Positions 12,339-32,752 of a stretch of DNA of 43,277 nt are shown here, piece after piece. The notes beneath the pieces are model-generated. The model was not told the DNA's origin. It saw nothing but the letters and a program-made list of their open reading frames with translations, and ran no database searches. Position 1 is the first letter of the stretch; the number at the start of each line of letters is the position of its first letter. Made by a program: the position numbers and the translations under genes. This stretch comes from Alphaproteobacteria bacterium (lineage in GTDB: Bacteria; Pseudomonadota; Alphaproteobacteria; SMXS01), in the NCBI GenBank assembly GCA_016124315.1, contig WGNW01000011.1, forward strand, positions 1 through 43,277, given 5' to 3'.

Positions 12339-12692
12339 CGACACGTCAAGGTCGCGATAGGCTGCTGGAGGGGAGACAGGCATCGATGACGCGATCCCAA
12401 CCATACGTCATATCCTATACATCGAAGGCGTTGCCGCTCGGTAACATATGTGGGGCGACGCTGTCCTGCGGAAATGTGGGAGCGCGCCCGATGCGCGCCC
12501 CTCTCAGCCCGGCATTCCCAAACCGCGCGTCGAACTGCTCCTCGGCCCGGCGCCGCGCTTCGTGACCTTCTGGATGCGGCGCTTGCCGCATCGGAGAGGG
12601 GACGCCCGACCCGGCATCCGTCGGACGGCCCCTACCCTCCTCCCTGAGGGAACTGAGCACCACTGGTCCCCGCTGGTGGTGCTCATTTTTTT
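12339..12692 (+). ncRNA. Candidate structured ncRNA (or leader with a short ORF)
   Basis: The region starts just after a good promoter (12305-12332) and ends at a hairpin plus T-tract. It contains a perfect 8-bp stem with a 4-nt loop (gatgcggc/gccgcatc, 12573-12592). The only sensible reading frame is a 60-residue ORF (ATG 12386 to TGA 12565, SD-like ggaggggag some distance upstream) with no recognised motif and Ser/Arg/Cys-rich content of the kind seen in random GC-rich frames. The 3' end overlaps the final codons of the antisense hybrid kinase. Transcription is predicted, not shown. Confidence 0.35.
12655..12692 (+). terminator. Intrinsic terminator (plus strand)
   Basis: Stem gagcaccac (12655-12663) / gtggtgctc (12676-12684) has a 12-nt loop and is followed by a ttttttt run at 12686-12692. 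The T-run is on the plus strand, so it terminates rightward transcription. The stop codon of the leftward kinase gene lies inside the stem. Confidence 0.7.
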
Positions 12693-16183: not shown

Positions 16184-16396
16184 GCCCCGGTTCACAGCCT
16201 CGCGTCTCGGAGGGCAGCCCCTCCGCGTCCTGCAGGTCCGGATTTGCCGCTGTATTCGCATCATAGCGACTCTTTGCGCGGTCGGGTACACGGCATCGGC
16301 GCTCGAGCCTGGACGCGGCACCCTCAAAGCTTTATCTCCTGTGCCCGGCCGTGGCTACGCATGGCCGACGGTGTGGCCGATTGGATGTGACAGGCG

Positions 16397-19691: not shown

Positions 19692-20828
19692 ATGACGCCT
19701 CCCGACGAAGACGCCTTCGATCGCACGACAGTCTTCGTGCCGAGCGCCCCCAGGCCCGCGACAACCGGCCTGGAGGAGATGGGCCACTATCTCCTTGTCA
19801 TCGACGGCGGGGAACCCGGCCAGCGGGTCGAGATCGGCGACAAGCCGATGATCATCGGCCGGGATCCCGGTTGTTCCTTCGTCATCAACGATTCCCAGGT
19901 CTCCCGCCGCCACTGCTCGGTGGGCCTGCGCTTCGAGACCGCGGTGCTCACCGACAACGGCTCGACCAACGGCACCTATGTGGGCGGCAAGCGGATCGCC
20001 GAGCCGGTGCCGCTGACGGAAGGCATGATCTTCACCATCGGCAACCATGTCCTGCAGTACGAGAAGCGGAACCGGCGCGAGACCCGCGACATGCAGGAGC
20101 TGGACCGGTCGCTGGCCAAGGCCAGCAAGTACGTCCATTCCCTGCTGCCCGCCCCGCTGCGCGAGGGCGACATCCTGACCGAGTGGTTCTACCTTCCCTC
20201 CGAGCGCCTGGGCGGCGACGCCTTCGGCTATTTCGCGCTGGATGACGACAATTTTGCCATCTACATCGTCGACGTGTCGGGCCACGGCGTCGGCGCGGCC
20301 ATGCATTCCGTGTCGCTGCTCAACGTGCTGCGGCAGCGGGCGCTGCCCAGCACCGACCTGACGAAGCCGGCGCAGGTGGTGGGCAAGCTCAATCAGATGT
20401 TCCCCATGGAAGATCACGACGACATGTATTTCACCATGTGGTACGGGGTCTGGAACCGCGCGAGCCGGCGGCTCGCCTATTGCACCGCCGGCCATCACGC
20501 CGGTTTCCTGCTGTCCGCCGACAAGGCCTCGGTCCGGCAGCTGCGCACGGAAGGCCCGATCATCGGCCTGCTGCCCGACTTCCCGTTCGAGACCGGCGCC
20601 GTGGACGTGCCCCGGGGCGAAACGCTCTATCTGTTCAGCGACGGCGTGTTCGAGATCATTACCCATGAGGGCGCGGAGTGGGCGCTGGTGGACTTCGAGC
20701 CGCTGCTGATCGAGCCGACGTCGCCCATGCAGTCAGAACCCGACCGCCTGCATGCCGCGGTGCGCTCGGTCTCGCGTCCCGGACCGTTCGACGACGATTT
20801 TTCGATCCTGACTGTAACATTTGAGTAA
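19692..20828 (+). CDS. FHA-domain SpoIIE/RsbU-type PP2C phosphatase
   Basis: The protein has 378 residues. A short N-terminal arm holds a Thr-Thr motif (FDRTTVFVP, Thr12-Thr13). An FHA domain follows (about 45-120: IIGRDPGCSFVINDSQVSRR with Arg57 and Ser71, then NGSTNGTYVGG), which binds phosphothreonine. A linker helix leads to a SpoIIE-type PP2C domain (150-378) with metal Asp residues Asp176 (GGDAFGYF), Asp194 (VDVSGHG), Asp317 (FSDGVFE) and Asp369 (FDDDFSIL). Such phosphatases dephosphorylate STAS antagonists, here probably the next gene. Having an FHA domain instead of PAS or response-regulator input links it to the Ser/Thr kinase in this window. The arm resembles the self-binding phospho-motif of mycobacterial GarA. 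Confidence 0.93.
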   Translation: MTPPDEDAFDRTTVFVPSAPRPATTGLEEMGHYLLVIDGGEPGQRVEIGDKPMIIGRDPGCSFVINDSQVSRRHCSVGLRFETAVLTDNGSTNGTYVGGKRIAEPVPLTEGMIFTIGNHVLQYEKRNRRETRDMQELDRSLAKASKYVHSLLPAPLREGDILTEWFYLPSERLGGDAFGYFALDDDNFAIYIVDVSGHGVGAAMHSVSLLNVLRQRALPSTDLTKPAQVVGKLNQMFPMEDHDDMYFTMWYGVWNRASRRLAYCTAGHHAGFLLSADKASVRQLRTEGPIIGLLPDFPFETGAVDVPRGETLYLFSDGVFEIITHEGAEWALVDFEPLLIEPTSPMQSEPDRLHAAVRSVSRPGPFDDDFSILTVTFE

Positions 20829-20910
20829 TAGAGGCCGACTAGTATCCGCGTCTTGACTGGCCGTCGTGCGGGCGGCCGACGGCTCCTTAACGGCATGTGG
20901 GGGAATTGCA

Positions 20911-21249
20911 GTGGACATGGACGTCATCGACCTGGGCGACAACACGCTCAAAATCGTGCTTCACGGTCGCCTCGACACGCCCGGCGTGGACAAGATCGAG
21001 ACCAGGTTCTCGGCGACCATCGTGCCCGGCGGGCGCCATGCCATCGTCGACCTGTCCGATGTCAGCTTCATCGCCTCCATGGGCCTGCGCATGTTCATTT
21101 CGGTCGCGCGCTCCGTGAACAACAAGCACGGCAAGCTGGTCCTGCTGTCGCCCCAGGAGATGGTGCATGAAGTGTTCAAGAACGCCGCTCTCGGCCAGAT
21201 CATCCCGATCGTCTTCAACGAAGAGGACGCCCGCGCGGCTGTCGCATAA
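20911..21249 (+). CDS. STAS-domain anti-sigma factor antagonist (RsbV/SpoIIAA-like)
   Basis: The protein has 112 residues from a GTG at 20911 preceded by ggggga; an ATG at 20917 is an alternative, and the frame is open further upstream without an SD. It has the STAS fold: LKIVLHGRLDTPG, AIVDLSDVSFIASMGLRMFI and KLVLLSPQEMVHEVF. The phospho-acceptor is expected at Ser56 in SFIASMG, the site RsbW-type kinases modify and SpoIIE-type phosphatases restore. It lies 82 bp after the FHA phosphatase and 30 bp before the ATPase, forming a complete three-part partner switch. Confidence 0.92.
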   Translation: MDMDVIDLGDNTLKIVLHGRLDTPGVDKIETRFSATIVPGGRHAIVDLSDVSFIASMGLRMFISVARSVNNKHGKLVLLSPQEMVHEVFKNAALGQIIPIVFNEEDARAAVA

Positions 21250-21279
21250 GCCGTCGCCGCCGCTCTCCCGAAACGCACC

Positions 21280-21732
21280 GTGCCGGCGATGAATGGCGTT
21301 GCCGGCAGCGCGCGCGACGGGGGCGCCGAGACGGTCATCGAGGTGGGCCAGAGCCTGGCCGAGCTGGGCCGCTGCCTGGAGGAGCTGCAAGGCTTCCTGG
21401 AGCGCCACGGCGTCGCCGCCCGAGGGCGGTTCCAGACGGAGCTGGTGTTCGAGGAGCTGGTGACCAACGTGGTCCGCTACGGCTACGACGGCGGCGGCGA
21501 GACCGTCGAGGTCATGGTGAGGATCGAGCCGGATGACATCGTCATGGTGGTCAGCGACGAGGGCCGTCCGTTCAATCCGCTGGAGCGGCAGGATCCCGAA
21601 GCCCCCGAATCGCTCGCCGACGCCTCGATCGGCGGCCTCGGCATCATGCTGGTGCGCAAGGCCGCCCGCCACATGGCCTACGAGCGCGACGGCAACCGCA
21701 ACCGGCTGACAGTGGTCATCCCTAACGAGTAG
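21280..21732 (+). CDS. HATPase anti-sigma regulatory factor / STAS kinase (RsbW-like)
   Basis: The protein has 150 residues from a GTG at 21280 (or the ATG at 21289). The GHKL ATPase motifs are clear: FEELVTNVVRYGY (N-box, Glu and Asn), VSDEGRPFNPL (G1) and GGLGIMLVRKAA (G2). In known switches such proteins hold a sigma factor or other target and phosphorylate the STAS partner. No sigma factor gene adjoins it; the only one in the window is an ECF type about 18 kb away. The target may be distant or not a sigma factor. It converges on the PP2C gene with 20 bp between. Confidence 0.92.
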   Translation: MPAMNGVAGSARDGGAETVIEVGQSLAELGRCLEELQGFLERHGVAARGRFQTELVFEELVTNVVRYGYDGGGETVEVMVRIEPDDIVMVVSDEGRPFNPLERQDPEAPESLADASIGGLGIMLVRKAARHMAYERDGNRNRLTVVIPNE

Positions 21733-21752
21733 GCGGCGGTGTCCTGCTCCGG

Positions 21753-22484
21753 TTACGCCTCGGCCTCGATGATGACGAAGGACAGATTGTCGGGCGCCCC
21801 GCGCTCCAGGCAGGTGGCCTCGATGCGCTCTGCAGCCTCCGTCAGGTCGGGCATGCCGGCCATCAGGGCGATCTCCGTGTCCGAGCAGACGCCGGTGACC
21901 CCGTCGGTGGCGAGGATCAGCCGGTCACCGGCCTCGATGGGGCCGTGGCAGGTATCCACGTCGAGATGCGCATGGGCGCCCAGGGCGCGGGTGACGACGT
22001 TGCGCATGGGATGGTGGCTCGCGTCGGCGGCGGAGATCTCGCCGGCGTCCACCAGCTGCTGCACGAAGGAGTGGTCGCGCGTGAGCCGGCTCAGCTGGTT
22101 GCGGCGCAGGCGGTAGAGGCGACTGTCCCCGACCCAAAGGCAGGCGTAGAAGTCCTGGTAGATCAGCACGGCCACCACGGTGCTGCCCATGGTGCGGGCC
22201 TGCGACTGCGCCGAGCCCTGGGTGTAGAGATCGTCATTCACCCGGTAGAGATCCTCGCGCACCTCCCTGAGGAAGGAGCGGCCGTCCACCGGCGGCTTCA
22301 CCGCGGCGAGGCGGTCGATGATCATGGCGCTGGCCACGTCGCCCGCCCGATGGCCGCCCATGCCGTCGGCGACGACCCACAGGCCGATGTCGGTGCGCTC
22401 GAGGAACGCGTCCTCGTTGTGCGGGCGCACCTTGCCGGTGTGCGTCCTGCCGATCGACCGAAAGCTCAGTTGTCCCCCGTACAC
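21753..22484 (-). CDS. PP2C-type Ser/Thr protein phosphatase (PppA/Stp-like)
   Basis: The protein has 243 residues from a GTG at 22484 with a good SD (ggagggaag). This is the classical bacterial PP2C pattern: HTGKVRPHNEDAFLE (Asp25), WVVADGMGGHRAGD (Asp40), GSTVVAVLI, WVGDSRLYRLR, RDHSFVQQLVDAGEI, LILATDGVTG (Asp194) and GAPDNLSFVII (Asp232). It is last in the operon TPR protein - FHA protein - DotU-like protein - PP2C, 18 bp after the previous stop. In type VI secretion clusters the same phosphatase (PppA) reverses phosphorylation of the FHA protein by PpkA. Its likely partner here is the kinase at 30711. Confidence 0.94.
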   Translation of the reverse strand: MYGGQLSFRSIGRTHTGKVRPHNEDAFLERTDIGLWVVADGMGGHRAGDVASAMIIDRLAAVKPPVDGRSFLREVREDLYRVNDDLYTQGSAQSQARTMGSTVVAVLIYQDFYACLWVGDSRLYRLRRNQLSRLTRDHSFVQQLVDAGEISAADASHHPMRNVVTRALGAHAHLDVDTCHGPIEAGDRLILATDGVTGVCSDTEIALMAGMPDLTEAAERIEATCLERGAPDNLSFVIIEAEA

Positions 22485-22502
22485 GGTGCGGCTCTTCCCT
22501 CC

Positions 22503-23828
22503 CTAGAACCAGACGGGCATCGGGCCCGTCGGCGCGGCTGGCCGCACCTGCTTGCCGATGACGACCAGCATCCGCCCCGGAACGACGGGAGGCTTCCCGT
22601 CTGCCGGCGCTGTCATCACGATGCACACGATCTGCTTCCCCTGCTCGGACGTCCAAGGCTTCAGGAAATCGGCCACCTGCCGCACCTGCTCGTCCATCAG
22701 GCCCGGGCCATCGGTGGAGCGGACGGCAACGAGGTAGACCGGTCCGGCGGAAAGGCCGACGGCCGCGCCGATCCGGCGCATGGTCCTGTCGCTCGCCGGA
22801 TCCAGCTTCGCCGAATCCCGGACGAACAGCGTCTGGGCCGCCACGTTCAGCACCACCGAGGAGGCGGTCTCGTCGATGGAAACCAGCCTCGTCGCGGTAT
22901 CCTGATCCAGCAGTGCCCTGATTCTGCCCGGCGCGGGTTCGGGCCTGGGCTGCAGATCGGGACTGCTCAGGATGGCCGAGGCGTCTGGCGCCGCGCCCGT
23001 ATTCCCGGCGACACGGGGCGATCCCTCGCCGAAGATCAGCACCGCAATCCCCAGGGATGCGGCGACGAGCAGGACTCCGCCCAGCACCATGGTGAAGGGG
23101 TTGAGGTAGGCGAGCGCCTTGTGGGCGTTGCCCTTGGCGCCGATGGACACCGAGGCGCGGGGGTGCTTCTCCGCTTCCGCGCGGATCGCGGCGAGCAACC
23201 GCTCCCGGTACTGGATCAGCAGCAGGGGGCCGCGGGCGTCGATCCGGAACGGCCCCTCGAAGCCGAGCGCCATCACCACGTAGACGAGCTCCAGCAGGTA
23301 GTAGCGGCGGCCCGGGTCGACCAGCACCTCTTCGAGCAGATCGATCACCTGCTGGCCTGCGCCGCGCGGATCACGGGACGGCCCCGCCATGGGCCGCTGG
23401 CGCCACTCGGACTTGCCCGGCCATGGGCCGTTCAGGACCAGGTCGTCGATCAGCGCGCCGAGCACCGTCACCCCCGACTTGACCGTCTCCGCATCCAGCT
23501 CCGTGCGCCCGCTGGCCGTGCGGTAGGCCTTCAGCGCGCGCTGCGCGGCGGCCTTGATGTCGGCGAGACCGGCGAACTCCTCCGGCTTCTGGCGCAGCGT
23601 TTCCGCCAGGGTCAGCAGCGCGGCGCCGGAGACCAGAAGCGGATTGCCCCAGGTCAGGTTGACGTCGACGCGCCCGAAGGTCAGCCGTTCCAGGACCGGC
23701 TCCTCGACGACCGTGCGTCCGAGAAGGAAGGGATTGTCCGGTTCCGGCGCATCCTCGGACGCAGCGCGGTGCAGCGGATGGACTCCGCCCCCTTCCTCGC
23801 CCAGCCCGAATGGATTGTTAGACTGCAT
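22503..23828 (-). CDS. tssL: TssL/DotU-family inner-membrane protein with degenerate OmpA-like tail
   Basis: The protein has 441 residues. The N-terminal arm carries NNPF (4-7), DNPF (31-34) and RTVVEEP (38-44). A DotU/IcmH cytoplasmic helical domain follows (about 55-225: NPLLVSGAALLTLAETLR, GALIDDLVLN, RRYYLLELVYVVMALGFEGP, RERLLAAIR). One membrane span lies at about 246-266 and a periplasmic domain at 295-441. That domain starts like the OmpA domain of TssL (QTLFVRDSAKLDPASDRTMR), but the Asp/Arg residues that grip peptidoglycan in OmpA domains are not recognisable. In type VI systems TssL pairs with TssM and TssJ in the envelope complex, and neither is seen here. It lies between the FHA protein and the phosphatase. 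Confidence 0.85.
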   Translation of the reverse strand: MQSNNPFGLGEEGGGVHPLHRAASEDAPEPDNPFLLGRTVVEEPVLERLTFGRVDVNLTWGNPLLVSGAALLTLAETLRQKPEEFAGLADIKAAAQRALKAYRTASGRTELDAETVKSGVTVLGALIDDLVLNGPWPGKSEWRQRPMAGPSRDPRGAGQQVIDLLEEVLVDPGRRYYLLELVYVVMALGFEGPFRIDARGPLLLIQYRERLLAAIRAEAEKHPRASVSIGAKGNAHKALAYLNPFTMVLGGVLLVAASLGIAVLIFGEGSPRVAGNTGAAPDASAILSSPDLQPRPEPAPGRIRALLDQDTATRLVSIDETASSVVLNVAAQTLFVRDSAKLDPASDRTMRRIGAAVGLSAGPVYLVAVRSTDGPGLMDEQVRQVADFLKPWTSEQGKQIVCIVMTAPADGKPPVVPGRMLVVIGKQVRPAAPTGPMPVWF

Positions 23829-23896
23829 CGCCTCTCATTTCGTCGCCGCACTTCTGGCGGCAGTGTCGCTCCCTTGCGAGATGATCCCGTCCGCGG

Positions 23897-24940
23897 TCAC
23901 AAATCCGCATTCTGCAGCTGCCGCAGCCGGTCCTCGTAGCCGCGCCGGAAATCGACCATGAACGAACTGCGGTCGAGATCGGCGATATCCTTTTCCAATT
24001 GTGCGAAGTATGCACGATAAGTGTCCCAAGCAGCAGCCTTCTTGCCGCCTGCCGTGACGATGGACATGGTGCTTCGCTTGCTCAGCAGTTCCTCGATCTC
24101 GTCCGGGTCGAGCCGGGCCACGAGGCCGACCAGCGCGCGGTGCATGCCGGCCAGCACCGCGAGCTGGTGGCGCTTGACGTCGCGGAACGTCGCCTCGACC
24201 GCCTCCTCCGATGCCAGATAACCCTTCTGGTCGCTGCGCAGCAGCCGGACCGCCAGTTCCTCGGGCATCAGCGACTTGAACGGGTTGTTGTTCATCGGCA
24301 TGACCATGGTCTGCTCGGCGCGGAACTGGGCCTTGACCGCGGAACGGTCGCGCAGCAGGTCGTGGACGTGGGAGATGATCTGGCGGAACAGGCCGCCGGC
24401 GCGCCGCAGCACGGCGTTGGCATCGGCGCCCTGCATGGTCTTCGGATCGAGCCCGGCGCCGTCGAGGAAGGCCGCCAGCGCCTCCGGCGGCGGGCCCTTC
24501 CCGGTGGCCGCGACCGGCTCGCTGAAGGGATCCCGAGCGCGCGATGCGTCGCGTCCGTCTTCCTCCTCGCCATAGCCCCACGGATCATCGTCCTCGGGCG
24601 CCGTCTCGGCCGGCGCCTGCTCGAACGCGACCGTCACTTCGTACTCCCCCACCTGCAGCCGGTCGCCGTGGCCGAGCGGAATCGGACCCCCCCTCTCAAG
24701 GCGCTGCCGCGATCCGTTGAGGAAGATTCCGTTGGCGCTCAGGTCGGTGGCGAACAGCCGGCCGCCGGCCAGGTTCAATTCGCAATGGTGGCGCGACAGC
24801 AGGCGCTGACGGTCTTCCAGTATCCAGTCGCAATCCGGCGCGCGGCCGATGATCATCGTGCCGCCCTCCAGCATCCGTTCGTCTTCGGCGGCATCCTCAC
24901 CCGCCCGCGACAGCGTCAGTCTCACCAAACTCAAGCCCAT
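23897..24940 (-). CDS. tagH: TagH-type FHA-domain protein (type VI secretion associated)
   Basis: The protein has 347 residues. The N-terminal FHA domain (about 1-107) contains MIIGRAPDCDWILED (Arg33), SRHHCEL (Ser49-Arg50-His51), SANGIFLNGS and PLGHGDRLQVGEYEV. An acidic linker holds RDPF. The C-terminal helical domain (about 150-347) reads like the T6SS FHA C-terminal family (FRQIISHVHDLLRDRSAVKA, NNNPFK, YLASEEAVEATFRDVKRHQL, SFMVDFRRGYEDR). In type VI systems this protein is phosphorylated by PpkA and promotes envelope-complex assembly. It follows the TPR membrane gene by 39 bp and precedes the DotU-like gene by 68 bp. Confidence 0.9.
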   Translation of the reverse strand: MGLSLVRLTLSRAGEDAAEDERMLEGGTMIIGRAPDCDWILEDRQRLLSRHHCELNLAGGRLFATDLSANGIFLNGSRQRLERGGPIPLGHGDRLQVGEYEVTVAFEQAPAETAPEDDDPWGYGEEEDGRDASRARDPFSEPVAATGKGPPPEALAAFLDGAGLDPKTMQGADANAVLRRAGGLFRQIISHVHDLLRDRSAVKAQFRAEQTMVMPMNNNPFKSLMPEELAVRLLRSDQKGYLASEEAVEATFRDVKRHQLAVLAGMHRALVGLVARLDPDEIEELLSKRSTMSIVTAGGKKAAAWDTYRAYFAQLEKDIADLDRSSFMVDFRRGYEDRLRQLQNADL

Positions 24941-24979
24941 GCTCCGTCGATCACTTTCCTCTCCCCCTCTGCCGGCGCC

Positions 24980-27157
24980 TCACGAAGAACCGGCGGTCTC
25001 CAAATCATGCAACCGATCACGCAGCCGGGCGCGGTCGGCATCGAGGTCCGCCGTGATCGCCTGGAATTCCGCCAAGCCGCGCAGCGATCGCAGCGCCGGG
25101 TCCCAGCCGACCACCGAGACGCCCGGAAAGCGGTGCGACACCGAACTCCTCAATGCCGCCAGCGCCCCGTCGCGGTCGCCCTCCAGCGCGTCGATCCGCG
25201 CCTCGACATAGGCCAGGTAAGGATAGTCGAACCCGAGCCGGCGAAGCGTCGCCACGTAGCGTCGACTTTCCTCCAGCAGGGTCTTCGCCGCGGCGGCGTC
25301 GCCGACGGCGAGACGGGCGGCGGCGAGGGTGATGGCGGGCATGAAGGGTGTCCGGGTGAACAGCCGCCACCGGTCCTTCGGCGGCAGGCCTTCGAACGGA
25401 CCGAGCAGGTCGATCACCGCCCGGTCGTTGCCGGCGGCCGCCTCGGCGTCGGCGAGCGCGAAGATCCGCTCGGGGTCGCCGGGGTTGGCGGCAAAACGGC
25501 GCTGCGCCTCGGCGACCGCGTCGGCGGCGCGGCCCTCGGCCAGGAGCACCAGTTCGCCGTCGCCCTTGAGCCAGCTGGCGGCCTCTTCCGCGGCGCCGAG
25601 ATCGAGATAGATCATGCCGAGCAGCCGGCGGGCGCGCCGGTCGGACGGATCGGCGGCGTTCGCGCGGCGCAGCATCTCCGCCGCGTCCACCGGCCGCCAG
25701 TCGTCGGCCAGGCGGGCGCCACGGGCCACCAGCAGATTCTCGTCGCCGGGATAGAGGCGCTCCAGCCGGTCGAGCAGCATGTCGGCGCCCAGACGCCGGT
25801 CGCTCAACGCCAGCAGCCGCGACATGTTGAGACCGATGGCCAGCGAGTCCGGCTGCAGGTGATAGGCTTGCTCCAGGTGAGGGATGCCGTCGCCCGGCCG
25901 TCCCGCCGCCAGATAGGCCCGGTAGAGCCACAGATGGGCCTTCGCCAGGTCGGGCTTGGCGGCGACGGCCTTGTTCAGCTTGCCGATGGCGCCGTCGGCG
26001 TCGCCGGACACCAGGTCGGCGAAGCCGTCGACGGCCCTGGCCTCCGCCAGCTTGGGATTGAGCACCAGCGCCTTCGCCACGAGCGGCCTCGCCCGGGCGA
26101 CGGCGTCGGGCACCGGCACGGCGCCGTACGTCGCCGCCCCCTGGCCCTGGAGCAGGATCGTCTCGGCGATGCCGGCGTAGGCGGATGCCGTTTTCGGCGC
26201 CAGGGCAATGGTCTGCTCGAAGGCGGACAGGGCCGCCGCGAGGGACTTGCCGGTGCGGCGCCCGAGGCTTTGGCGTCCCGAGGCGAGGGCCTTCTGCGCC
26301 GCCGCCGGGGAGCCCTTGGCACCCGCCACGTCGTCCTCGTCCTGCGGCTCGTGGGTGATCACCCGCCGCACGTCATCGACGATGGCCTGCGACAAGTCGT
26401 CCTGCACCGACAGGATATCCGCCACGTTCCGGTTGAAGGTCTTCGACCAGAGCTGGACGCCGTGCTTGGTGTCGACGAGCTGCGCCATCACCCGGAGCCG
26501 GTCGCCGGCGCGCTGCACACTGCCGTCGAGCACCACGTTCACCCCGAGTTCCTCGCCGACGGCCTTCATGCCGTGGTCTTCCTCGGGCTTGGCGGCGGCG
26601 CTGTCCGCCAGCACCCGCAGACCCGGCAGCCGGGTCAGCCGGTTGCGGACTTCGGCGGTGAGCGCCCGCGAGACCCCTTCCTGCTCGGGCTCGACCGACA
26701 GATTGGCGAAGGGGAGGACCGCCATGCTCCGCACGTTGAGCGTGACGGGGGCATCGTCGGCCTCCTTCGTCCATTCGACCTGATAGTACAGGTAGCCGCA
26801 GATGCCGATCATGGTCGCCAGGATGAGGTAGTCACCCACATTGGCCGGCGCTCGGCCGATGTGCCGGTGCTGGTCCACGTCCTGTGTTCGTCGCAGGCCT
26901 TCGGGCGTCATCTCGAAGGCCCAGGCCGCCACCAGCGTCACGGGCAATCCGAGGAGCATCATGGTGAAGACGAAGGTCGTCGACCATTCCGGCAAATGGT
27001 ACGCGCTCACCAGGGGATCGGTGAGCTGGACCATGCCGAAGAACACGACGGCGTAGGCGCCGCCGACGCGGAACACGTTTCGCCGCTTGAGTTCATCGAC
27101 AAAGCGCACCGAGTAGTCCCCTCGCCCTCGCGGACGATTGAGCCGTCCACGCGCCAT
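24980..27157 (-). CDS. Membrane-anchored TolB-like/TPR protein
   Basis: The protein has 725 residues and is the first gene of the operon. The N-terminal cytoplasmic motif VDELKRRNVFRVGGAY (about 19-35) leads into three hydrophobic spans (33-50, 62-81, 108-126). A TolB-N/FlgO-like domain follows (about 140-260: SMAVLPFANLS, ELGVNVVLDGSVQRAGDRLR, VDTKHGVQLWSKTFNR). The remainder (about 280-715) is TPR helices (ALSAFEQTIALAPKTASAYA, AVAAKPDLAKAHLWLYRAYL and others). Proteins of this plan often carry an adenylate-cyclase or DNA-binding domain at the N-terminus; here that part is absent. It could scaffold the FHA and DotU-like proteins at the inner membrane, which is an inference from operon position only. 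Confidence 0.85.
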   Translation of the reverse strand: MARGRLNRPRGRGDYSVRFVDELKRRNVFRVGGAYAVVFFGMVQLTDPLVSAYHLPEWSTTFVFTMMLLGLPVTLVAAWAFEMTPEGLRRTQDVDQHRHIGRAPANVGDYLILATMIGICGYLYYQVEWTKEADDAPVTLNVRSMAVLPFANLSVEPEQEGVSRALTAEVRNRLTRLPGLRVLADSAAAKPEEDHGMKAVGEELGVNVVLDGSVQRAGDRLRVMAQLVDTKHGVQLWSKTFNRNVADILSVQDDLSQAIVDDVRRVITHEPQDEDDVAGAKGSPAAAQKALASGRQSLGRRTGKSLAAALSAFEQTIALAPKTASAYAGIAETILLQGQGAATYGAVPVPDAVARARPLVAKALVLNPKLAEARAVDGFADLVSGDADGAIGKLNKAVAAKPDLAKAHLWLYRAYLAAGRPGDGIPHLEQAYHLQPDSLAIGLNMSRLLALSDRRLGADMLLDRLERLYPGDENLLVARGARLADDWRPVDAAEMLRRANAADPSDRRARRLLGMIYLDLGAAEEAASWLKGDGELVLLAEGRAADAVAEAQRRFAANPGDPERIFALADAEAAAGNDRAVIDLLGPFEGLPPKDRWRLFTRTPFMPAITLAAARLAVGDAAAAKTLLEESRRYVATLRRLGFDYPYLAYVEARIDALEGDRDGALAALRSSVSHRFPGVSVVGWDPALRSLRGLAEFQAITADLDADRARLRDRLHDLETAGSS

Positions 27158-27548
27158 CCATCCCTTTGCACTATATGCGACAATACTGCGGGTGGGTAGC
27201 GTCCCGCACCGCCCGGCGACGGGAGACGGCCGTTGGGCTGGCTTCGATTCGCCAAAGAAACGACCCGCGGCAGCAGTCCTCCCCTCGCCCCGGCGAACCG
27301 GCGGAGCGGATCATGGCGCACTGCACCCATGGTATTGATTCAGGACGCGATTTCGCCCCAGTCGGGCGTCGCAGCCGGCGGCGATTGAAATAACGATTGC
27401 GAATTCAGCAGGATAGCTGATCATGGGCGATCGGCATCGGCGCGGAAGGCGCGGGAGCGGGGTGGTATTTTTTCTGCCGCCGGGAGCGGGGAGCCGCATT
27501 CCCGCAAATCCGGAGACCGGTGCTGAAAGTGCTTTGGAGGGGATTGCC
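27158..27548. other. Divergent intergenic region
   Basis: This is a 391-bp gap between the TPR membrane gene and the LysM lipoprotein gene. It holds no recognisable ORF or RNA gene. A plus-strand frame open from 27423 is only the 5' leader of the lipoprotein gene. A lower-GC patch (about 27380-27425, gattgaaataacgattgcga) is the likeliest promoter zone, but no clear -35/-10 pair was found. Confidence 0.4.
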
Positions 27549-28682
27549 GTGTCGCACTTCAACAGGATTCTGATCGCCGCTTTCGCGGCGGGCGCACTGA
27601 CTGCCTGCGCGTCGAAAGCGCCGCCGCCGCCACCGCCGCCGCCGCCTGCGCCGGTCGCCGAGGAAGCGCCGGTCGAGAAGGCGCCCGAAGTCGTCGCGCC
27701 CGTCTACACGCCGACGCCCGGCCTGTCGGCCAAGGAGCGCTTCCGCACCGCGGTCAAGCTGCTGGAGACCGGCGAGGCCGGCCAGGCGAAGGCCGAACTG
27801 CAGCAGTACATCGCCGAGACGCCCAACAGCAAGGTCGCCCAGGGCCTGCTCGCCCAGATCGACACGCCGATCAAGGACTACTTCCCCGAGGAATCCTTCA
27901 CCGTGACGATCGCGCCCGGCGAGTCCCTGTCGACGCTGGCGCAGACCTTCCTGCGCGATCCGCTGAAATTCTTCGTGCTGGCGCGCTACAACGGCATCGA
28001 GAATCCCAGCCAGATCTCCGTCGGCCAGACCATCCGCATCCCGCAGACGCCCGAAACCCTCGCGGCCAAGGAAGCGCGGGCTCGGGGCGAGACGCAGAAG
28101 CCCGCGGCCGCGGAAGCCGCCGCGGCCGCCGAGCAGGAAGAGGAGACCGAAGCACCGACGGCTGCCGAGCAACCGGCCCAGCCCGCGCCCAAGGGCTCCA
28201 TGGAGAAGGTCCGCGCCCTCGCCGCCGCCGGCGACGCCGACGGCGCGATCAAGGAGGTCGAGACCTACAAGCTGGGCGCCACCGCCAATGCGGCCGACGC
28301 CACCTTCATCGCCGACACCTACCTCGCCAGCGCCAGGAGCCTCAAGGGATCGAACCCGTCGGTGGCCGCACAGCGCGCACGCCGGGCCGGCAATCTCTAT
28401 CTCAAGGCCGGCGACAAGGCCGACAAGGCGCTGGAGGCGGCGCAGCTCGCCTCGTCGCTGGCGCCCAACGACAAGGCCAACCAGACGCTGCTGGCCTCGG
28501 CCAAGGAGGCGGCGACAGACCGGTACTACCGCGCCGGGCTGTCTGCCTTCCGCCGCCAGGAACTCGACACCGCCATCAGGTACTGGGACAAGGTGCTGGA
28601 GATCGACCCCAACCACGAGAACGCGAAGCTCCAGCGTGCGCAGGCGGTGGAGTTGAAGGAGAAGCTGTCGAAGCTGAAGTAG
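27549..28682 (+). CDS. LysM- and TPR-containing lipoprotein
   Basis: The protein has 377 residues from a GTG at 27549 with SD tggagggg. Its features are a lipoprotein signal with Cys20 (GALTAC), a run of nine prolines and an Ala/Pro/Glu-rich spacer. A first TPR-like pair lies at about 60-105, and a LysM domain at about 116-166 (TVTIAPGESLSTLAQTFLRD, YNGIENPSQISVGQTIRIPQ) would bind peptidoglycan. A low-complexity Ala/Glu linker (168-205) leads to C-terminal TPRs (ALEAAQLASSLAPNDKANQT, AIRYWDKVLEIDPNHENAKL). It is probably an outer- or inner-membrane lipoprotein linking the wall to protein partners. It lies between two operons of the phospho-signalling cluster and converges on another TPR lipoprotein. 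Confidence 0.9.
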   Translation: MSHFNRILIAAFAAGALTACASKAPPPPPPPPPAPVAEEAPVEKAPEVVAPVYTPTPGLSAKERFRTAVKLLETGEAGQAKAELQQYIAETPNSKVAQGLLAQIDTPIKDYFPEESFTVTIAPGESLSTLAQTFLRDPLKFFVLARYNGIENPSQISVGQTIRIPQTPETLAAKEARARGETQKPAAAEAAAAAEQEEETEAPTAAEQPAQPAPKGSMEKVRALAAAGDADGAIKEVETYKLGATANAADATFIADTYLASARSLKGSNPSVAAQRARRAGNLYLKAGDKADKALEAAQLASSLAPNDKANQTLLASAKEAATDRYYRAGLSAFRRQELDTAIRYWDKVLEIDPNHENAKLQRAQAVELKEKLSKLK

Positions 28683-28696
28683 CGGAGCGATCCACG

Positions 28697-28716
28697 GCCG
28701 GCCGGAGACGGCCGGC
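28697..28716. terminator. Bidirectional hairpin between convergent genes
   Basis: Stem gccggccg (28697-28704), loop gaga, stem cggccggc (28709-28716): 8 perfect GC pairs located 14 bp after one stop and 11 bp from the other. There is no T-tract, so strength is uncertain. Confidence 0.5.
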
Positions 28717-28727
28717 TGCCGGATCGG

Positions 28728-29660
28728 CTATTTCGGCGCGATGCGGCTGAGCGTGTCGCGCATCTTCCTGGCCTGGGCAAGACTCTGCTTGGCCCGAAGG
28801 TGCTCCGGATTGTAGGTAAGCGCCTGTTCCAGCAGCTCGATCGCCCGGTCGAGGTCCGAGGTCATGTAGCTCAGGCCCTCGCTGTAGAGCTTGTCGGCCA
28901 GTTCGTCCCGCACCGTCTTCACCTTGGCCTCGAACTCCTGGCGGTCGTCGGCGTCGGCGCTTTCCACGGCAGATCCGAGATAGGTGAGCGCATCCCGGTA
29001 GTTGCCGCGCCGGCGGCTCTCGTCGACGAGCGCCAGATAGGCCTTCTTGCGGTACTCCGCGGCGACCTTGTTGTCGGGATTGCGCTTGAGGAATTGATCC
29101 GACAGGTCGATGACCCGGCGGTGGTCGCCACGCTTCAGCGGCGCCTTCACCTTCGCTTCGTACTCCTCGAGCGTGTCCTGCCGCTTGACCATGGCCGTGC
29201 GGTACTCGGACATGGCCTTCTGGTCCTTGCGGTTCTGGTTCGCCAGGGCGATGGTGCGGTCGATCTCGCGCAGCCGGTTCCGCGCCTCCTCGTCGCTGCC
29301 GTCGAGCAGCAGGGCCTTGAGGTAGGCGATCTGCGCCTTGTGGGTTTCCTGGTGCGCCAGCGCCTCTTCGCCCTCCTTGAAGTACTGCTGCCTGAGCGCG
29401 GCGATCTGGTCACCCAGCTCGTCCACCCGCTCCTTGGCTTCCGCGTCGGCCGGCGCGGCGGCGGCGACGTAGCGCCACTGCTGGAGCGCTTCCTTCAACC
29501 GGCCTTCCTTCTCGTACTGGCGCGCCAGGGCGCGCTTGTCTGCCAGGAAGTTGACCAGGGCGCTATCGGCGCCCGGCGCGACCGCGACCGGCGTCACGTC
29601 CTTCGCCGCGCATCCGGCAAGGACCAGGGACAGCGCGACGGCTGGCCAAGCTCTTTTCAT
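28728..29660 (-). CDS. TPR-repeat lipoprotein
   Basis: The protein has 310 residues from the ATG at 29660 (MKRAWPAVAL); the ATG at 29669, overlapping the previous stop, is an alternative. The lipobox is VLAGC with Cys17. The mature part is helical throughout: a charged coiled-coil-like middle (about 70-175: ELGDQIAALRQQYFKEGEEA, IALANQNRKDQKAMSEYRTA) flanked by TPR motifs, ending with AIELLEQALTYNPEHLRAKQ. It is last gene of the kinase - deacetylase - lipoprotein operon. With the LysM lipoprotein it supplies an envelope TPR scaffold. No enzymatic motif was seen. Confidence 0.88.
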   Translation of the reverse strand: MKRAWPAVALSLVLAGCAAKDVTPVAVAPGADSALVNFLADKRALARQYEKEGRLKEALQQWRYVAAAAPADAEAKERVDELGDQIAALRQQYFKEGEEALAHQETHKAQIAYLKALLLDGSDEEARNRLREIDRTIALANQNRKDQKAMSEYRTAMVKRQDTLEEYEAKVKAPLKRGDHRRVIDLSDQFLKRNPDNKVAAEYRKKAYLALVDESRRRGNYRDALTYLGSAVESADADDRQEFEAKVKTVRDELADKLYSEGLSYMTSDLDRAIELLEQALTYNPEHLRAKQSLAQARKMRDTLSRIAPK

Positions 29661-29668
29661 GTCACCCA

Positions 29669-30706
29669 TCACCGGAGGTCAACGGACTCGCGGACGGCGA
29701 GGTACTTCTGGAAATCCGCCATGCTGTCGTCCGAATAGACCATGTCCCGGCGCAGCACCAGCGGATCGGCAAAGGCGGGGTTGCCGCCGCGCTGCACGGT
29801 AGTGCCCGTGCGATAGCCGCGATCCTTGAGGATGGAGATGACGGTGGGGCTCATGTCGCCGTAGGGATAGGCGAAATCGCGCACGTTGTTGCCGAGCTTC
29901 GACTCGATGATGCCCTCCGGCACGGTGATCTCGGTGCGCACGCGCTCCGCGTAGCTCGGCCCGTCGACCTCGCCGGGGTTGAGGGACATGCTGGTGTGTG
30001 TCTTGGAATGGGACTCGACGGCGATCAGGCCGCTGTCGAGCATCTCCTTCATCTCCGCCCAGGTCAGCGCGAGACCGCCGCCGATGAAGTCGGTGTAGGT
30101 GTAGACAGTGGCATGGAAGCCATACTTCTTCAGGATCGGGTAGGCGATGTCGTAGGCGGAGCGGTAGCCGTCGTCGATGGTGATGACCACCGATTTCGCC
30201 GGCAGCGTGCCCTCTCCGGCCAGATAGCGGGAAAGCTGGCCCAGCGTGATGACGCTGTAGCCGTTGGTCTTGAGGAAGGCCATCTGGCTCTCGAAGGCGT
30301 CCTGGGAAACCTCCATCTTGTTGCGGGTGCGCTTGCCTGGGCCGAACTGGTGGTAACAGAGGATGGGCACCACCTGGTAGCCGTCCGCGTCCACCTGCCA
30401 GTGCTTCTCGGCCTTGAGCGGCACGACCAAGATCCGGCCCGGCGACGGCTGGGCCACGTCGTTGGCCTTGGCGATCCGCGGGCCGAGGGATTCGTCGTTC
30501 AGATAGGTCTTGGCCAGGGAGGCGAAGGTGTCGGCGGCCGCCGCCCGGACCAGGACGAAGTCGTCGGTGCGGGCGACCACGGGATCCCGGGGCGCCTCCA
30601 CCTGGACCTGCTGGGTGGCGCAGCCGGCGAAGGCCAGCGCCAGCAGGCCGAGGCACGCCCGGAACGCCCACCGGGAGAATGCCGGTCCCACGCCCGCCAC
30701 GTCCAT
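29669..30706 (-). CDS. Polysaccharide deacetylase (NodB-type) lipoprotein with LysM-like segment
   Basis: The protein has 345 residues from the ATG at 30706, 4 bp after the kinase stop. A lipoprotein signal ends at Cys29 (FAGC). A LysM-like segment lies at about 50-96 (FVLVRAAAADTFASLAKTYL, PSPGRILVVPL). The NodB/CE4 domain follows, with IDDGY (Asp178-Asp179), the metal His pair in ESHSKTHTS (His233, His237), and a DFAYPYGDMS motif. Relatives remove N-acetyl groups from peptidoglycan, chitin-like chains or exopolysaccharide (PgaB-like). Membrane anchoring and the LysM-like part favour peptidoglycan or an envelope glycan. It is co-transcribed with the Ser/Thr kinase and a TPR lipoprotein. Confidence 0.9.
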   Translation of the reverse strand: MDVAGVGPAFSRWAFRACLGLLALAFAGCATQQVQVEAPRDPVVARTDDFVLVRAAAADTFASLAKTYLNDESLGPRIAKANDVAQPSPGRILVVPLKAEKHWQVDADGYQVVPILCYHQFGPGKRTRNKMEVSQDAFESQMAFLKTNGYSVITLGQLSRYLAGEGTLPAKSVVITIDDGYRSAYDIAYPILKKYGFHATVYTYTDFIGGGLALTWAEMKEMLDSGLIAVESHSKTHTSMSLNPGEVDGPSYAERVRTEITVPEGIIESKLGNNVRDFAYPYGDMSPTVISILKDRGYRTGTTVQRGGNPAFADPLVLRRDMVYSDDSMADFQKYLAVRESVDLR

Positions 30707-30710
30707 CAGC

Positions 30711-32618
30711 CTACCGCTTCCCCTGGGGCGACCGCATGGCGCCGCCCTCCTCGTCGTCGGCGAAGGGGTCATCGTCGCGCACAGGCTCGTTCTCGTTGAA
30801 CGGGTCTTCCTCGAGGAACGGATTGTTCCGGTCGACGACCGGGGCGGGCCCCGGATTGGTGGAGATGAGCGTGGCCTCGATCGCGGCCGAGACCGACGGG
30901 CCGGATGACACGAGCGTCAGGTCGCCGGCACCGGCCGTGTTCAGCTCTTCCGTCTCCTCGTCGCGCCACATGGCGGGAATCGGGCGCGACGCCTGCGGCT
31001 CGTCGCCGGCGGGGGCCGCCGACGCCACGTGGGACGCCAGCCCCTCCATCATCCTGTTGAAGGCGGTGAACAGGGCGCCGATCTCGTCGCGCCTGGTCTC
31101 CGAGATACGCTGGTCGAGGTCGCCCGCCGCCACCGCCAGCATGGCCTGACGCAGACGCTTCATCGGCCTGGCGAGCATGCCGCCGAACACGTAGAGCATC
31201 AGCACCACCGCCGCGACCGTGATGACGCCCAGGGCGGCCATCAGCGTGCGGGTGAGGCCCATGACGTCCTCGAGTCCCTCCTGGGAGAGGCCCATGTAGA
31301 TCCGGCCGACTTCCTTGGTCTGGAACAGGATCGGCGTGTCGAAATTGAACACGCTCTGGCCGTTGGGCAGGTCCACGGAAGACGCCGTGACGTCCGGCGC
31401 GATCTTCAGCACTTCCATGTCGTGAGGGCGCACGTACGGCTTGCCAACCAGGGACTGGTCGGTGGCGGCGCGCACCGTGCCGGTGTGGTCGGCGACGATG
31501 AGATAGGTAAACGTGTCGCGCTCGCTGGCGTCCTGCACGAAGGTTTCCAGCCGGATCCAGTCCTCGCTGAGCACCGGTATCGCCGATTCGGTGGCGATGA
31601 ACTTGGCCAGCGACGAGCCGGCGTCGAGGGATTCCTGTTGGATCGCCTTGCCCTGGAAGTGAAACACCGTGAGCATGCTCGCGGCCATGACCACCGCGAT
31701 GATCCCGCCCATGGCCAGCGCCCAGCGCACCTTGAGCGGCAGGAACTTGTTGGAGGCGGCCTCCTCCTCCTGCTCGATCAGCACGCTCAGTTCGCGCGAC
31801 AGGGCCTCGGCGAGTTCGGCGCCGTTCTGGAACCGCTTTTCCGGCTTCTTGCTGAGCAGCTTGGTGACGATGCGCTGCAGCCCCACGGGCAGGTCCGGCG
31901 CCGTCTTGCGGATGGGCTCGGGGTCCTTCTGGGTGATCTGCAGCAGCAGCGAGGTCATCGTGCTGGCGTTGAACGCCTTGGCGCCGGTGAACAGCTCGTA
32001 GAGGATGACGCCGACCGAGAACAGGTCGGACCTTCCGTCGAGCTTGTCGCCCAGCGCCTGCTCCGGCGACATGTAGCGCGGCGTTCCCAGCACGGTGCCC
32101 GCGTGGGTCTTGTGCATGTCGTCGCCGCCCTCGACCCGGGCGATGCCGAAATCGGCGACCTTGATGGAGTCGCCGTGGCGCATGAACAGGATGTTCGCCG
32201 GCTTGATGTCGCGGTGGACGACGCCGAGGCGGTGGGCGTAGTCCAGCGCCTGGGCGAGCTGGATGCCGATCGACACCACCCGCTTGAGCGGCAGCTTCTC
32301 GTTCTTGGACAGCAGGTCGCTGAGCGTCTGCTCTTCCAGGAACTCCATGGTGATGTAGGGTTTGCGGCCGACACGCCCGACGTCGTAGATGGTGACGATA
32401 TTGGGATGGGACAGCGCGCCCGCCGCCCGGGCCTCGCGCAGGAACCGGTTGACGTATTCCTCGTCGACGCAGAGTTCGTCCTTGAGCACCTTGATCGCGA
32501 CGGTTCGATCGATCTCGGGGTCGTACGCCTTGTAGACGTCGGCCATCGCCCCTTCGCCAATCAGTCCGTCGACCAGATAGCGGCCGATCGATGTCGTTAT
32601 CGTACCGTCATCGGCCAT
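30711..32618 (-). CDS. Transmembrane Ser/Thr protein kinase with CACHE-like sensor and HAMP (PpkA/Pkn-like)
   Basis: The protein has 635 residues from the ATG at 32618 with SD aggagg. The Hanks-type kinase (about 13-280) keeps the Gly loop IGEGAMADVY, Lys43, catalytic HRDIKPAN (Asp137), DFG (Asp156) and activation loop THAGTVLGTPRYMSPEQ. A membrane span at 297-319 is followed by an extracytoplasmic region (about 320-458) with a CACHE-like YLIVADHTGTVRAATDQ motif, a second span (about 459-481) and a HAMP region (481-530). The acidic tail (550-635) contains NNPFLEEDPF and DDDPFADDEE. The sensor/HAMP layout resembles chemoreceptors and is unusual among bacterial Ser/Thr kinases, which often carry PASTA repeats. 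Likely targets are the two FHA proteins. Confidence 0.93.
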   Translation of the reverse strand: MADDGTITTSIGRYLVDGLIGEGAMADVYKAYDPEIDRTVAIKVLKDELCVDEEYVNRFLREARAAGALSHPNIVTIYDVGRVGRKPYITMEFLEEQTLSDLLSKNEKLPLKRVVSIGIQLAQALDYAHRLGVVHRDIKPANILFMRHGDSIKVADFGIARVEGGDDMHKTHAGTVLGTPRYMSPEQALGDKLDGRSDLFSVGVILYELFTGAKAFNASTMTSLLLQITQKDPEPIRKTAPDLPVGLQRIVTKLLSKKPEKRFQNGAELAEALSRELSVLIEQEEEAASNKFLPLKVRWALAMGGIIAVVMAASMLTVFHFQGKAIQQESLDAGSSLAKFIATESAIPVLSEDWIRLETFVQDASERDTFTYLIVADHTGTVRAATDQSLVGKPYVRPHDMEVLKIAPDVTASSVDLPNGQSVFNFDTPILFQTKEVGRIYMGLSQEGLEDVMGLTRTLMAALGVITVAAVVLMLYVFGGMLARPMKRLRQAMLAVAAGDLDQRISETRRDEIGALFTAFNRMMEGLASHVASAAPAGDEPQASRPIPAMWRDEETEELNTAGAGDLTLVSSGPSVSAAIEATLISTNPGPAPVVDRNNPFLEEDPFNENEPVRDDDPFADDEEGGAMRSPQGKR

Positions 32619-32752
32619 GAAAGCCTCCTGCGCATCCCCCGCGCCTCGTCCGCACAAAAATTGCCGCGAGCGCCAACTTTAGTCCAGCCTGCGCGGAACG
32701 GCAAAGTTTCTGCATTGCAGCACACCTTGGCCTCGCACGCCACCACGACCGC

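Follow-up and report, generated by a model that had tools for sequence, protein, structure and literature searches.

A type VI-like threonine-phosphorylation module beside an FHA-bearing Rsb switch in Alphaproteobacteria, a possible envelope sensor without a secretion machine

Gene content of the locus

The stretch of DNA analyzed here (hereafter the window) comprises 43,277 nucleotides, positions 1-43,277 of contig WGNW01000011.1 of assembly GCA_016124315.1, from an alphaproteobacterium of the GTDB lineage SMXS01. It carries genes for a sensor Ser/Thr kinase, a PP2C phosphatase, an FHA protein of the TagH type, and a DotU/TssL-family protein, a set that recalls the threonine-phosphorylation pathway of the type VI secretion system (T6SS), and beside them a phosphatase, STAS, and RsbW-like switch of the Rsb type. 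The presence of DotU and TagH is commonly taken to indicate a type VI (or IVb) machine. A preliminary description of the locus, made from the sequence alone, had named these genes and their convergent operons, and profile scans of the window's open reading frames (Pfam and other protein families) located all of them where it had placed them.

The locus has three parts. The genes for the FHA-SpoIIE phosphatase, the STAS protein, and the RsbW-like protein lie on the plus strand (19692-21732). The operon encoding PP2C, DotU, TagH, and a membrane TPR protein (21753-27157, minus strand) is convergent to them, with only twenty bases between. Beyond this operon lies a LysM/TPR gene on the plus strand, followed by a minus-strand operon for a TPR protein, a deacetylase, and the sensor kinase (28728-32657). 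The features are as follows (family matches with E-values, or bit scores where so marked).

19692-20828, plus strand: FHA-SpoIIE phosphatase (RsbU-like), 378 amino acids, with, in order, an apparently disordered N-terminus bearing a near-invariant Thr12, the FHA domain, a helix (residues 128-151), and the SpoIIE domain (Pfam SpoIIE 2.1e-39, FHA 3.4e-19)
19725-19727, plus strand: codon of Thr12, a predicted phospho-acceptor in the motif DRTTVF (99% Thr)
20866-21249, plus strand: STAS protein (RsbV-like) with the usual Ser in IASMG (Pfam STAS 4.5e-15)
21280-21732, plus strand: RsbW-like HATPase (HATPase_c_2 9.4e-24)
21753-22484, minus strand: PP2C (Stp1-type) phosphatase (NF033484 1.8e-62, 210.9 bits, below the cut-off of 230)
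22503-23828, minus strand: DotU/TssL-family inner-membrane protein with an OmpA-like predicted periplasmic part (PF09850 3.5e-29, 102.3 bits, cut-off 27; TIGR03349 101.5 bits, cut-off 89.95)
23897-24940, minus strand: TagH, with FHA and T6SS_FHA_C domains (PF20232 6.7e-44; FHA 1.5e-16; TIGR03354 249.1 bits, cut-off 120)
24980-27157, minus strand: membrane TPR protein (TPR_19 2.5e-12; a weak TolB-like match to TIGR02800, 1.9e-5, below cut-off; N-terminal hydrophobic part recognized by eye)
27423-28682, plus strand: LysM/TPR protein with a lipobox-like LTAC by eye (LysM 4.9e-6, TPR_2 2.3e-7)
28728-29672, minus strand: TPR protein with a lipobox-like LAGC by eye (TPR_2 2e-6)
29669-30772, minus strand: polysaccharide deacetylase with a lipobox-like FAGC by eye; its start may be further in (PF01522 9.6e-23)
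30711-32618, minus strand: Ser/Thr kinase, comprising kinase domain, sCache sensor, HAMP, and tail (Pkinase 9.5e-51, sCache_3_2 4.2e-8, HAMP 4.5e-16)
30870-30872, minus strand: codon of Thr596 in the kinase tail (648-residue numbering), in the motif EATLI, a predicted FHA-docking phospho-site (invariant Thr in the five rows of kinase alignment A3)

The open frame of the kinase begins at 32657, and its likely start is the ATG of codon 14 at 32618, because this methionine (M14) occupies an invariant column across the five rows of alignment A3. The LysM/TPR gene between the operons was absent from the preliminary description, as were the OmpA-like fold of the periplasmic part of DotU and the separate T6SS in the same genome, both of which are treated below.

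Conservation within the order

The window's order is represented in our sample by 10 genomes, one of them the window's own (G000). A window-type DotU occurs in five (G000-G004), and the DotU of each of the four relatives exceeds the curated cut-off of PF09850. Genome completeness is 84.1% for G000, 99% for G001, and 100% for each of G002, G003, and G004. In all five, which span two genera, the genes for the kinase, deacetylase, TPR protein, LysM/TPR protein, membrane TPR protein, TagH, DotU, and PP2C form an intact and collinear block of eight (for G000, the block was read from the window itself), and a GNAT gene adjoins the kinase each time. Such an arrangement is more than chance, and the neighborhood is conserved rather than scattered, as the preliminary description would lead one to expect. 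PP2C is 57%-95% identical in pairs of the five genomes, and identity in G001-G004 is 43%-60% for the membrane TPR protein and 43%-55% for the TPR protein at 28728-29672; the LysM/TPR and deacetylase genes are kept in 5/5. Of the remaining genomes of the order, G006-G009 gave no match to the kinase at E 1e-60. G005 gave no DotU match; its kinase gene sits at the end of a contig that truncates the deacetylase, and the two share one open frame (C27:45518-47678), with no stop between, that runs off the contig.

The window-type DotU also stands apart in a sample of the whole class, in which the four matching genomes of the order reach 435-770 bits, against 148 for the genome ranked after them (any match at E 0.001: 43 of 385 genomes). 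A protein search with DotU returned 21 matches, and a profile search of genome contigs with the DotU alignment returned two loci, one of them useful. The class search also brought up more than a dozen alphaproteobacterial genomes (∼0.8-2 Mb) with a short DotU-like protein, mostly in frames of ∼245-300 amino acids (e.g., G014, G022, G186, G242, G252, G279, G311, G327).

The switch is less constant than the block. It stands beside the block in three of the five genomes, adjoining PP2C in G000 and G002 and, in G001, which belongs to another genus, lying at the opposite end, past the kinase and its neighboring GNAT gene. Only the STAS gene of the switch remains in G003, and G004 has no switch gene at all. 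Therefore, the kinase block does not need the switch, and the switch arm is optional. The preliminary description had called the two parts merged and integrated; their adjacency stands for these three genomes, whereas any obligatory union of the two does not. Moreover, synteny among G000, G002, G003, and G004 extends well beyond the block, from IleS to HlyD, so that inside the order only G001 provides independent evidence of linkage.

T6SS machine genes in the relatives

Within the order, the only one of the 10 genomes to match TssB (PF05591) or IcmF (PF06761) is the window's own, which matches both and where IcmF lies on contig C33 rather than at the module locus. For IcmF_N (PF14331) and TssC (PF05943), five of 16 genomes matched in each case (G000, G331, G697, G702, and G577). 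G001-G004 matched none of these models in searches that did yield matches in the positive genomes; the genome-wide searches took in TssB, TssC, and IcmF/TssM but not Hcp, VgrG, ClpV, or TssK. Of these last four, the only gene within the 40-kb stretches surrounding the module in relatives is one in G001 (C8:29251-29883) for an Hcp-family protein (PF05638, 82 bits) with a signal-peptide-like start, ∼6 kb from the switch. We considered whether relatives within the order have sheath or IcmF genes next to the module, and rejected this because none matched.

Because G001-G004 have no TssB, TssC, or IcmF match, it is unlikely that the module is kept there for a T6SS. The preliminary description had proposed something other than a secretion machine, and four relatives that are 99%-100% complete and keep the block with no TssB, TssC, or IcmF/TssM match support that proposal for the order. 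More generally, since there are near-complete genomes that keep DotU, TagH, the kinase, and the phosphatase with no sheath or IcmF match, DotU and TagH annotations do not prove the presence of a secretion system.

The absence of these matches could also be read as decay, with the module a remnant of a lost T6SS that has no present function. The T6SS core went undetected in the four relatives (for TssB, TssC, and IcmF/TssM), G003 has a reduced switch and G004 none, and DotU is the least conserved of five genes compared. However, we consider this very improbable, as catalytic and phosphothreonine-pocket patterns are present and internal stops absent in all copies checked, eight genes are retained in two genera, and estimated ratios of nonsynonymous to synonymous substitution (dN/dS) for PP2C, TagH, and the kinase are 0.05-0.32 over 30 pairs. 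Specifically, no internal stops were found in the DotU, TagH, PP2C, and kinase copies (five each) or the FHA-SpoIIE copies (three), and the catalytic motifs of the kinase, PP2C (metal site), and SpoIIE are found in every copy checked (kinase 5/5, PP2C 5/5). By gene, dN/dS is 0.05-0.24 for PP2C, 0.10-0.29 for TagH, and 0.12-0.32 for the kinase (10 pairs each), 0.29-0.43 for FHA-SpoIIE (three pairs), and 0.33-0.53 for DotU (10 pairs), the highest of the five; the overall range of 0.05-0.53 (43 pairs) is rough because synonymous differences amount to 0.38-0.70 per site.

A separate T6SS in the window's own genome

Contig C33 of G000 (16716-47515) holds an apparently complete T6SS, with Fha, TssK, TssL, ClpV, TssA, a PppA-like PP2C, TssB, TssM, two TssC matches, TssE (gp25), TssF, TssG, Hcp, and VgrG (the inventory did not take in TssJ). 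In addition, C88 (8951-12446) carries a tssA-tssB-tssC-hcp fragment inside the last 4 kb of the contig. Tetranucleotide similarity to the window is 0.918-0.943 for C33 and 0.826 for C88, compared with 0.932 between the window's own two halves, 0.919-0.961 for genus relatives, and 0.841-0.847 for the unrelated G593 and G577, than which C88 is no better. Plain contamination as the source of the C33 system was therefore rejected, as its tetranucleotide use is near the window's, though that of the genus relatives is near too; that of C88 is not near.

These contigs raise the question of whether the locus is an ordinary T6SS control locus split from its structural genes, here regulating the T6SS of C33 or C88. 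The apparent completeness of the C33 system, its tetranucleotide match to the window (about as good as that of the window halves, whereas C88 is further off), the fragment near the end of C88, and the gammaproteobacterial cassettes near T6SS genes (see below) all favor such a split. Nevertheless, we judge it improbable, because C33 itself encodes TssL, TssM, Fha, and a PppA-like PP2C, and because G001-G004 carry the module with none of the machine-gene matches. Given its own TssL and TssM, the C33 T6SS does not need the window's DotU, although cross-regulation may occur.

The kinase cassette outside the order

At E 1e-110 or better, the kinase is matched in five of 398 genomes of the phylum (G000, G593, G577, G697, and G702; scoring was limited to the few best candidates of each genome). 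Two of these genomes, the gammaproteobacteria G697 and G702, have a kinase of 56% identity over 523-535 amino acids, and their genes for the kinase, deacetylase, TPR protein or lipoprotein, LysM/TPR protein, and PP2C share a gene string with a T6SS cluster, ∼7 kb from the nearest VgrG-like gene (G697) and 14-16 kb from clpV. Matches in these clusters include the Fha of C33 or the window's TagH, TssK, TssL, TssM, TssB, TssC, TssF, TssG, ClpV, and VgrG, and, for G697, also TssA, TssE, and TssJ (Pfam). Thus, the question raised in the preliminary description, whether relatives have T6SS genes beside the locus, has a divided answer: no sheath or IcmF gene was matched beside it in the order, the G697 and G702 cassettes do lie in a T6SS string, and the window's own genome has its T6SS on another contig.

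As the gammaproteobacterial cassette shares a gene string with a T6SS cluster, it suggests that the module originated as a T6SS control module. The simplest history would be a T6SS control cassette that was kept after the machine, or acquired without it, in the window's order. The alphaproteobacterium G593, whose genome is a single contig, carries genes for a related kinase, TagH (PF20232, 107 bits), PP2C, and a LysM/TPR protein at C1:2287985-2292368. DotU was not matched at this locus, nor IcmF_N or TssC anywhere in the genome, and G593 is perhaps a second T6SS-less case. The LysM/TPR matches are weaker in G697, G702, G593, and G577.

The FHA-SpoIIE, STAS, and RsbW switch

A SpoIIE phosphatase, a STAS protein with a phosphorylatable Ser, and an HATPase stand in one gene string, as in an Rsb switch. 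The STAS Ser is kept in 5/5 aligned copies and the N-box E and N of RsbW in 4/4, residues that are important in these families. Of the 7994 candidates scored in a protein search with FHA-SpoIIE, 3197 matched, and the best 120 all have both FHA and SpoIIE domains. In these 120, the column of Thr12, in an otherwise variable N-terminus, holds Thr in 113 of the 114 sequences with a residue there (113 Thr, 1 Ser, and 6 gaps). In the predicted structure (mean predicted local distance difference test score, pLDDT, 85.3), residues 1-26 fall below 50, as if disordered, and a helix (128-151) joins the FHA and SpoIIE domains. This helix is in the same place as the linker of RsbU-type phosphatases, which are reported to be switched via linker dimerization (PMC12143880).

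No sigma factor or other RsbW target was found among the 19 window open reading frames scanned with Pfam, and the genome was not searched for targets. A further protein with a SpoIIE domain, for which the match did not extend to the FHA part, occurs in G000 (C6:5080-5808) and also in G002, G003, and G004 (frames of 628-721 amino acids); it is possible that this is another phosphatase for the same STAS protein.

Could the switch simply be an unrelated neighbor, an FHA-gated RsbU/V/W switch that happens to lie side by side with an independent, T6SS-derived unit of kinase, TagH, and DotU? We regard this as unlikely, although it is a serious alternative. The switch is missing or reduced in two of the five module genomes, and its adjacency in G000 and G002 is part of a generally syntenic region. 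In a sample of the class of G697, full FHA-SpoIIE was found in one of 369 genomes at E 1e-80 (G753), where the FHA-SpoIIE, STAS, and RsbW genes adjoin two genes for TPR proteins resembling the window's membrane TPR protein on a 7.1-kb contig, and where no kinase of the window type was found at E 1e-60 (the genome is 62% complete). On the other hand, in a different genus (G001) the switch has moved to the other block end yet still adjoins it, the FHA domain and near-invariant Thr of FHA-SpoIIE would need some Ser/Thr kinase, and the full FHA-SpoIIE is rare, being found at E 1e-70 or better in one of 398 sampled phylum genomes, the window's own. A plasmid search (tblastn) with FHA-SpoIIE gave 16 records, mostly of the SpoIIE domain alone, with one covering 80% of the query.

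Candidate phosphothreonine docking sites

The kinase tails carry a recurrent pattern, [DE]-x-T-aliphatic-aliphatic (that is, after an acid, a Thr followed by two aliphatic residues). There are 16 such sites in eight of 10 tails, compared with a mean of 1.02 and a maximum of 6 in 2000 shuffled trials; the two empty tails are those of G593 and G577, which the tail finder failed to match, and one counted site, in G005, lies past the kinase end. At the FHA-SpoIIE N-terminus, an alignment-based test found the motif in 100 of 118 sequences (118 of the best 120), compared with a shuffled mean of 17.3 and a maximum of 30, and the same motif was found in the FHA-SpoIIE linker, used as a control, in 1/120. 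This test supersedes an earlier one with a poor anchor (62/76 with the motif, 44/120 sequences skipped). By a narrower N-terminal pattern, 35 of 120 match, 33 match more loosely, and 52 are without it. The enrichments are overstated, because both patterns were composed with the sequences already in view and because the shuffling ignores the relatedness of the proteins.

Together, the Thr-aliphatic motifs in kinase tails and the near-invariant Thr12 suggest candidate sites for FHA docking. The usual phosphothreonine-pocket pattern of FHA domains is kept in 5/5 TagH and 3/3 FHA-SpoIIE copies. The preliminary description had one kinase signaling through two FHA proteins; the pocket patterns and the enriched candidate motifs support this putative route, with the reservation just given about when the patterns were written.

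In Agrobacterium tumefaciens, Fha is reported to bind TssL at phospho-Thr14, in the peptide DLPTVVEI (PMC3953482). Comparable N-termini are found in the gammaproteobacterial TssL (DLDRTVI), the G001 DotU (DLDQTII), and the window's DotU (RTVV). In the DotU alignment (A1), however, the motif is present in only two of 18 rows (the window and P0141), besides G001, and absent from 16; the DotU N-terminus of genus g1 mostly lacks it, and the TssL of C33 reads RRTRLM, again without it. The idea that the Thr motif of the TssL N-terminus is a kept trait of this DotU family was accordingly rejected, and, because 16 of 18 DotU rows are without it, FHA docking would more likely be on the kinase tail than on DotU. 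Separately, (N/D)PF motifs recur in the kinase tail (30711-30830), the TagH linker, and the conserved DotU N-terminus (NDPFELD, NPF) and may be a shared docking motif.

PknG is reported to recruit the FHA proteins GarA and OdhI through an autophosphorylated Thr (PMC8546545). The Thr12 region of FHA-SpoIIE resembles the ETTS motif of GarA/OdhI.

Predicted structure of DotU

The DotU model comprises a DotU fold, for which Foldseek matched Vibrio cholerae TssL (4v3i; target template modeling score, TM, 0.84), and a periplasmic OmpA-like fold, for which it matched a T6SS cell-wall anchor of Pseudomonas aeruginosa (4b62; target TM 0.68), although the predicted TM score of the whole model is only 0.48. 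The column of the peptidoglycan-binding Asp of OmpA is, by eye, not invariant, and cell-wall binding by the modeled DotU is therefore uncertain.

Flanking genes

Beside ileS, and kept in G002-G004, is a gene (window 12683-16327, minus strand) for a large hybrid histidine kinase that contains a receiver and several PAS domains. Between ileS and the switch, G002 (C8:17191-18959) and G003 (C1:1918721-1920502) have genes for a small membrane protein and an apparent cytochrome P450 (by eye), neither of which is found at that place in the window.

Interpretation and proposed mechanism

With belief and doubt about evenly balanced, we read the locus as a T6SS threonine-phosphorylation control unit, likely a stand-alone envelope sensor without a T6SS, that would also drive the adjacent FHA-SpoIIE/STAS/RsbW switch. 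That the kinase block and the switch form one integrated system is plausible, but the switch arm is optional and the phosphorylation steps are predicted ones. More tentatively, the T6SS sensory front end may have outlived its machine, as a wall-anchored hub with DotU but without IcmF, whose phosphothreonine code would be read by two FHA proteins, one at the DotU scaffold and the other at the RsbU/V/W switch.

Several of the observations above weigh against this reading: the T6SS on C33, which the module could serve in that genome, the fragment on C88, the Hcp-family gene near the G001 switch, and the limited set of machine genes searched for genome-wide; the partial or complete loss of the switch in G003 and G004 and the broad synteny around the block; the high dN/dS of DotU; the lack of the Thr motif in most DotU rows, in genus g1, and in the C33 TssL; and, for the docking motifs, the post hoc patterns, the relatedness of the shuffled proteins, the empty G577 and G593 tails, and the stray G005 site.

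If the stand-alone sensor reading is right, signaling might proceed as follows. The periplasmic sCache domain and the LysM, TPR, and deacetylase lipoproteins would, judging from their domains, sense or alter the cell wall. The kinase would then phosphorylate its own tail at the observed [DE]-x-T-aliphatic-aliphatic sites, and the FHA domain of TagH would bind these phospho-sites and meet DotU (the domains and the predicted fold are observed; the binding is conjectural). FHA-SpoIIE could be drawn to this tail, phosphorylated at its Thr12, or both, and, by analogy with GarA/OdhI and RsbU, would be opened, closed, or dimerized via its FHA domain and linker helix. The SpoIIE domain would dephosphorylate the STAS protein, which would hold RsbW and so free a putative RsbW target, and PP2C would reset the phosphothreonines. 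The switch arm of this scheme would be optional, as two of the five genomes lack all or part of it.

Were this mechanism true, it would show the reuse of the control circuit of a contact weapon for envelope signaling, and it would make testable how a Hanks-type kinase speaks to a STAS/RsbW switch via an FHA-bearing phosphatase.

Comparison with known systems

We found no description of this gene combination in the titles and abstract openings of those open-licence PMC papers that searches for it listed. The closest parallels each share part of it. The TssW-PpkA-Fha axis of Acidovorax likewise has an inner-membrane kinase and Fha, there with an outer-membrane partner, and positions a working T6SS (PMC12607579); its abstract does not mention an Rsb switch. 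RsbU/RsbV/RsbW switches, such as RbaV/RbaW/RbaY of Rhodobacter capsulatus, have in common the SpoIIE-type phosphatase, STAS protein, and RsbW kinase, whereas the phosphatase here bears an FHA domain and adjoins a Ser/Thr kinase module. For the R. capsulatus system, it is reported that no cognate sigma factor was found (PMC3999984). The GarA/OdhI-PknG switch of actinobacteria also has a short N-terminal Thr motif before an FHA domain, but at the present locus the FHA domain forms one protein with a SpoIIE phosphatase, and the phosphorylation is predicted.

The cassette of the gammaproteobacteria G697 and G702 shares the kinase, deacetylase, TPR protein, LysM/TPR protein, PP2C, and [DE]xT-aliphatic kinase tails; it differs in sharing its string with a T6SS cluster (tagH, tssK, tssL, tssM), and G697 has no FHA-SpoIIE match at E 1e-80. 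Finally, the T6SS threonine-phosphorylation pathway of Agrobacterium and Pseudomonas (PpkA, PppA, Fha, and TssL) has in common a membrane Ser/Thr kinase, a PP2C, an FHA protein with T6SS_FHA_C, and a DotU/TssL protein. In contrast to that pathway, four module relatives have no TssM, TssB, or TssC match and the DotU of g1 mostly lacks the N-terminal Thr motif, whereas the kinase here has an sCache-HAMP sensor and the module adds the deacetylase, the TPR and LysM proteins, and the Rsb switch.

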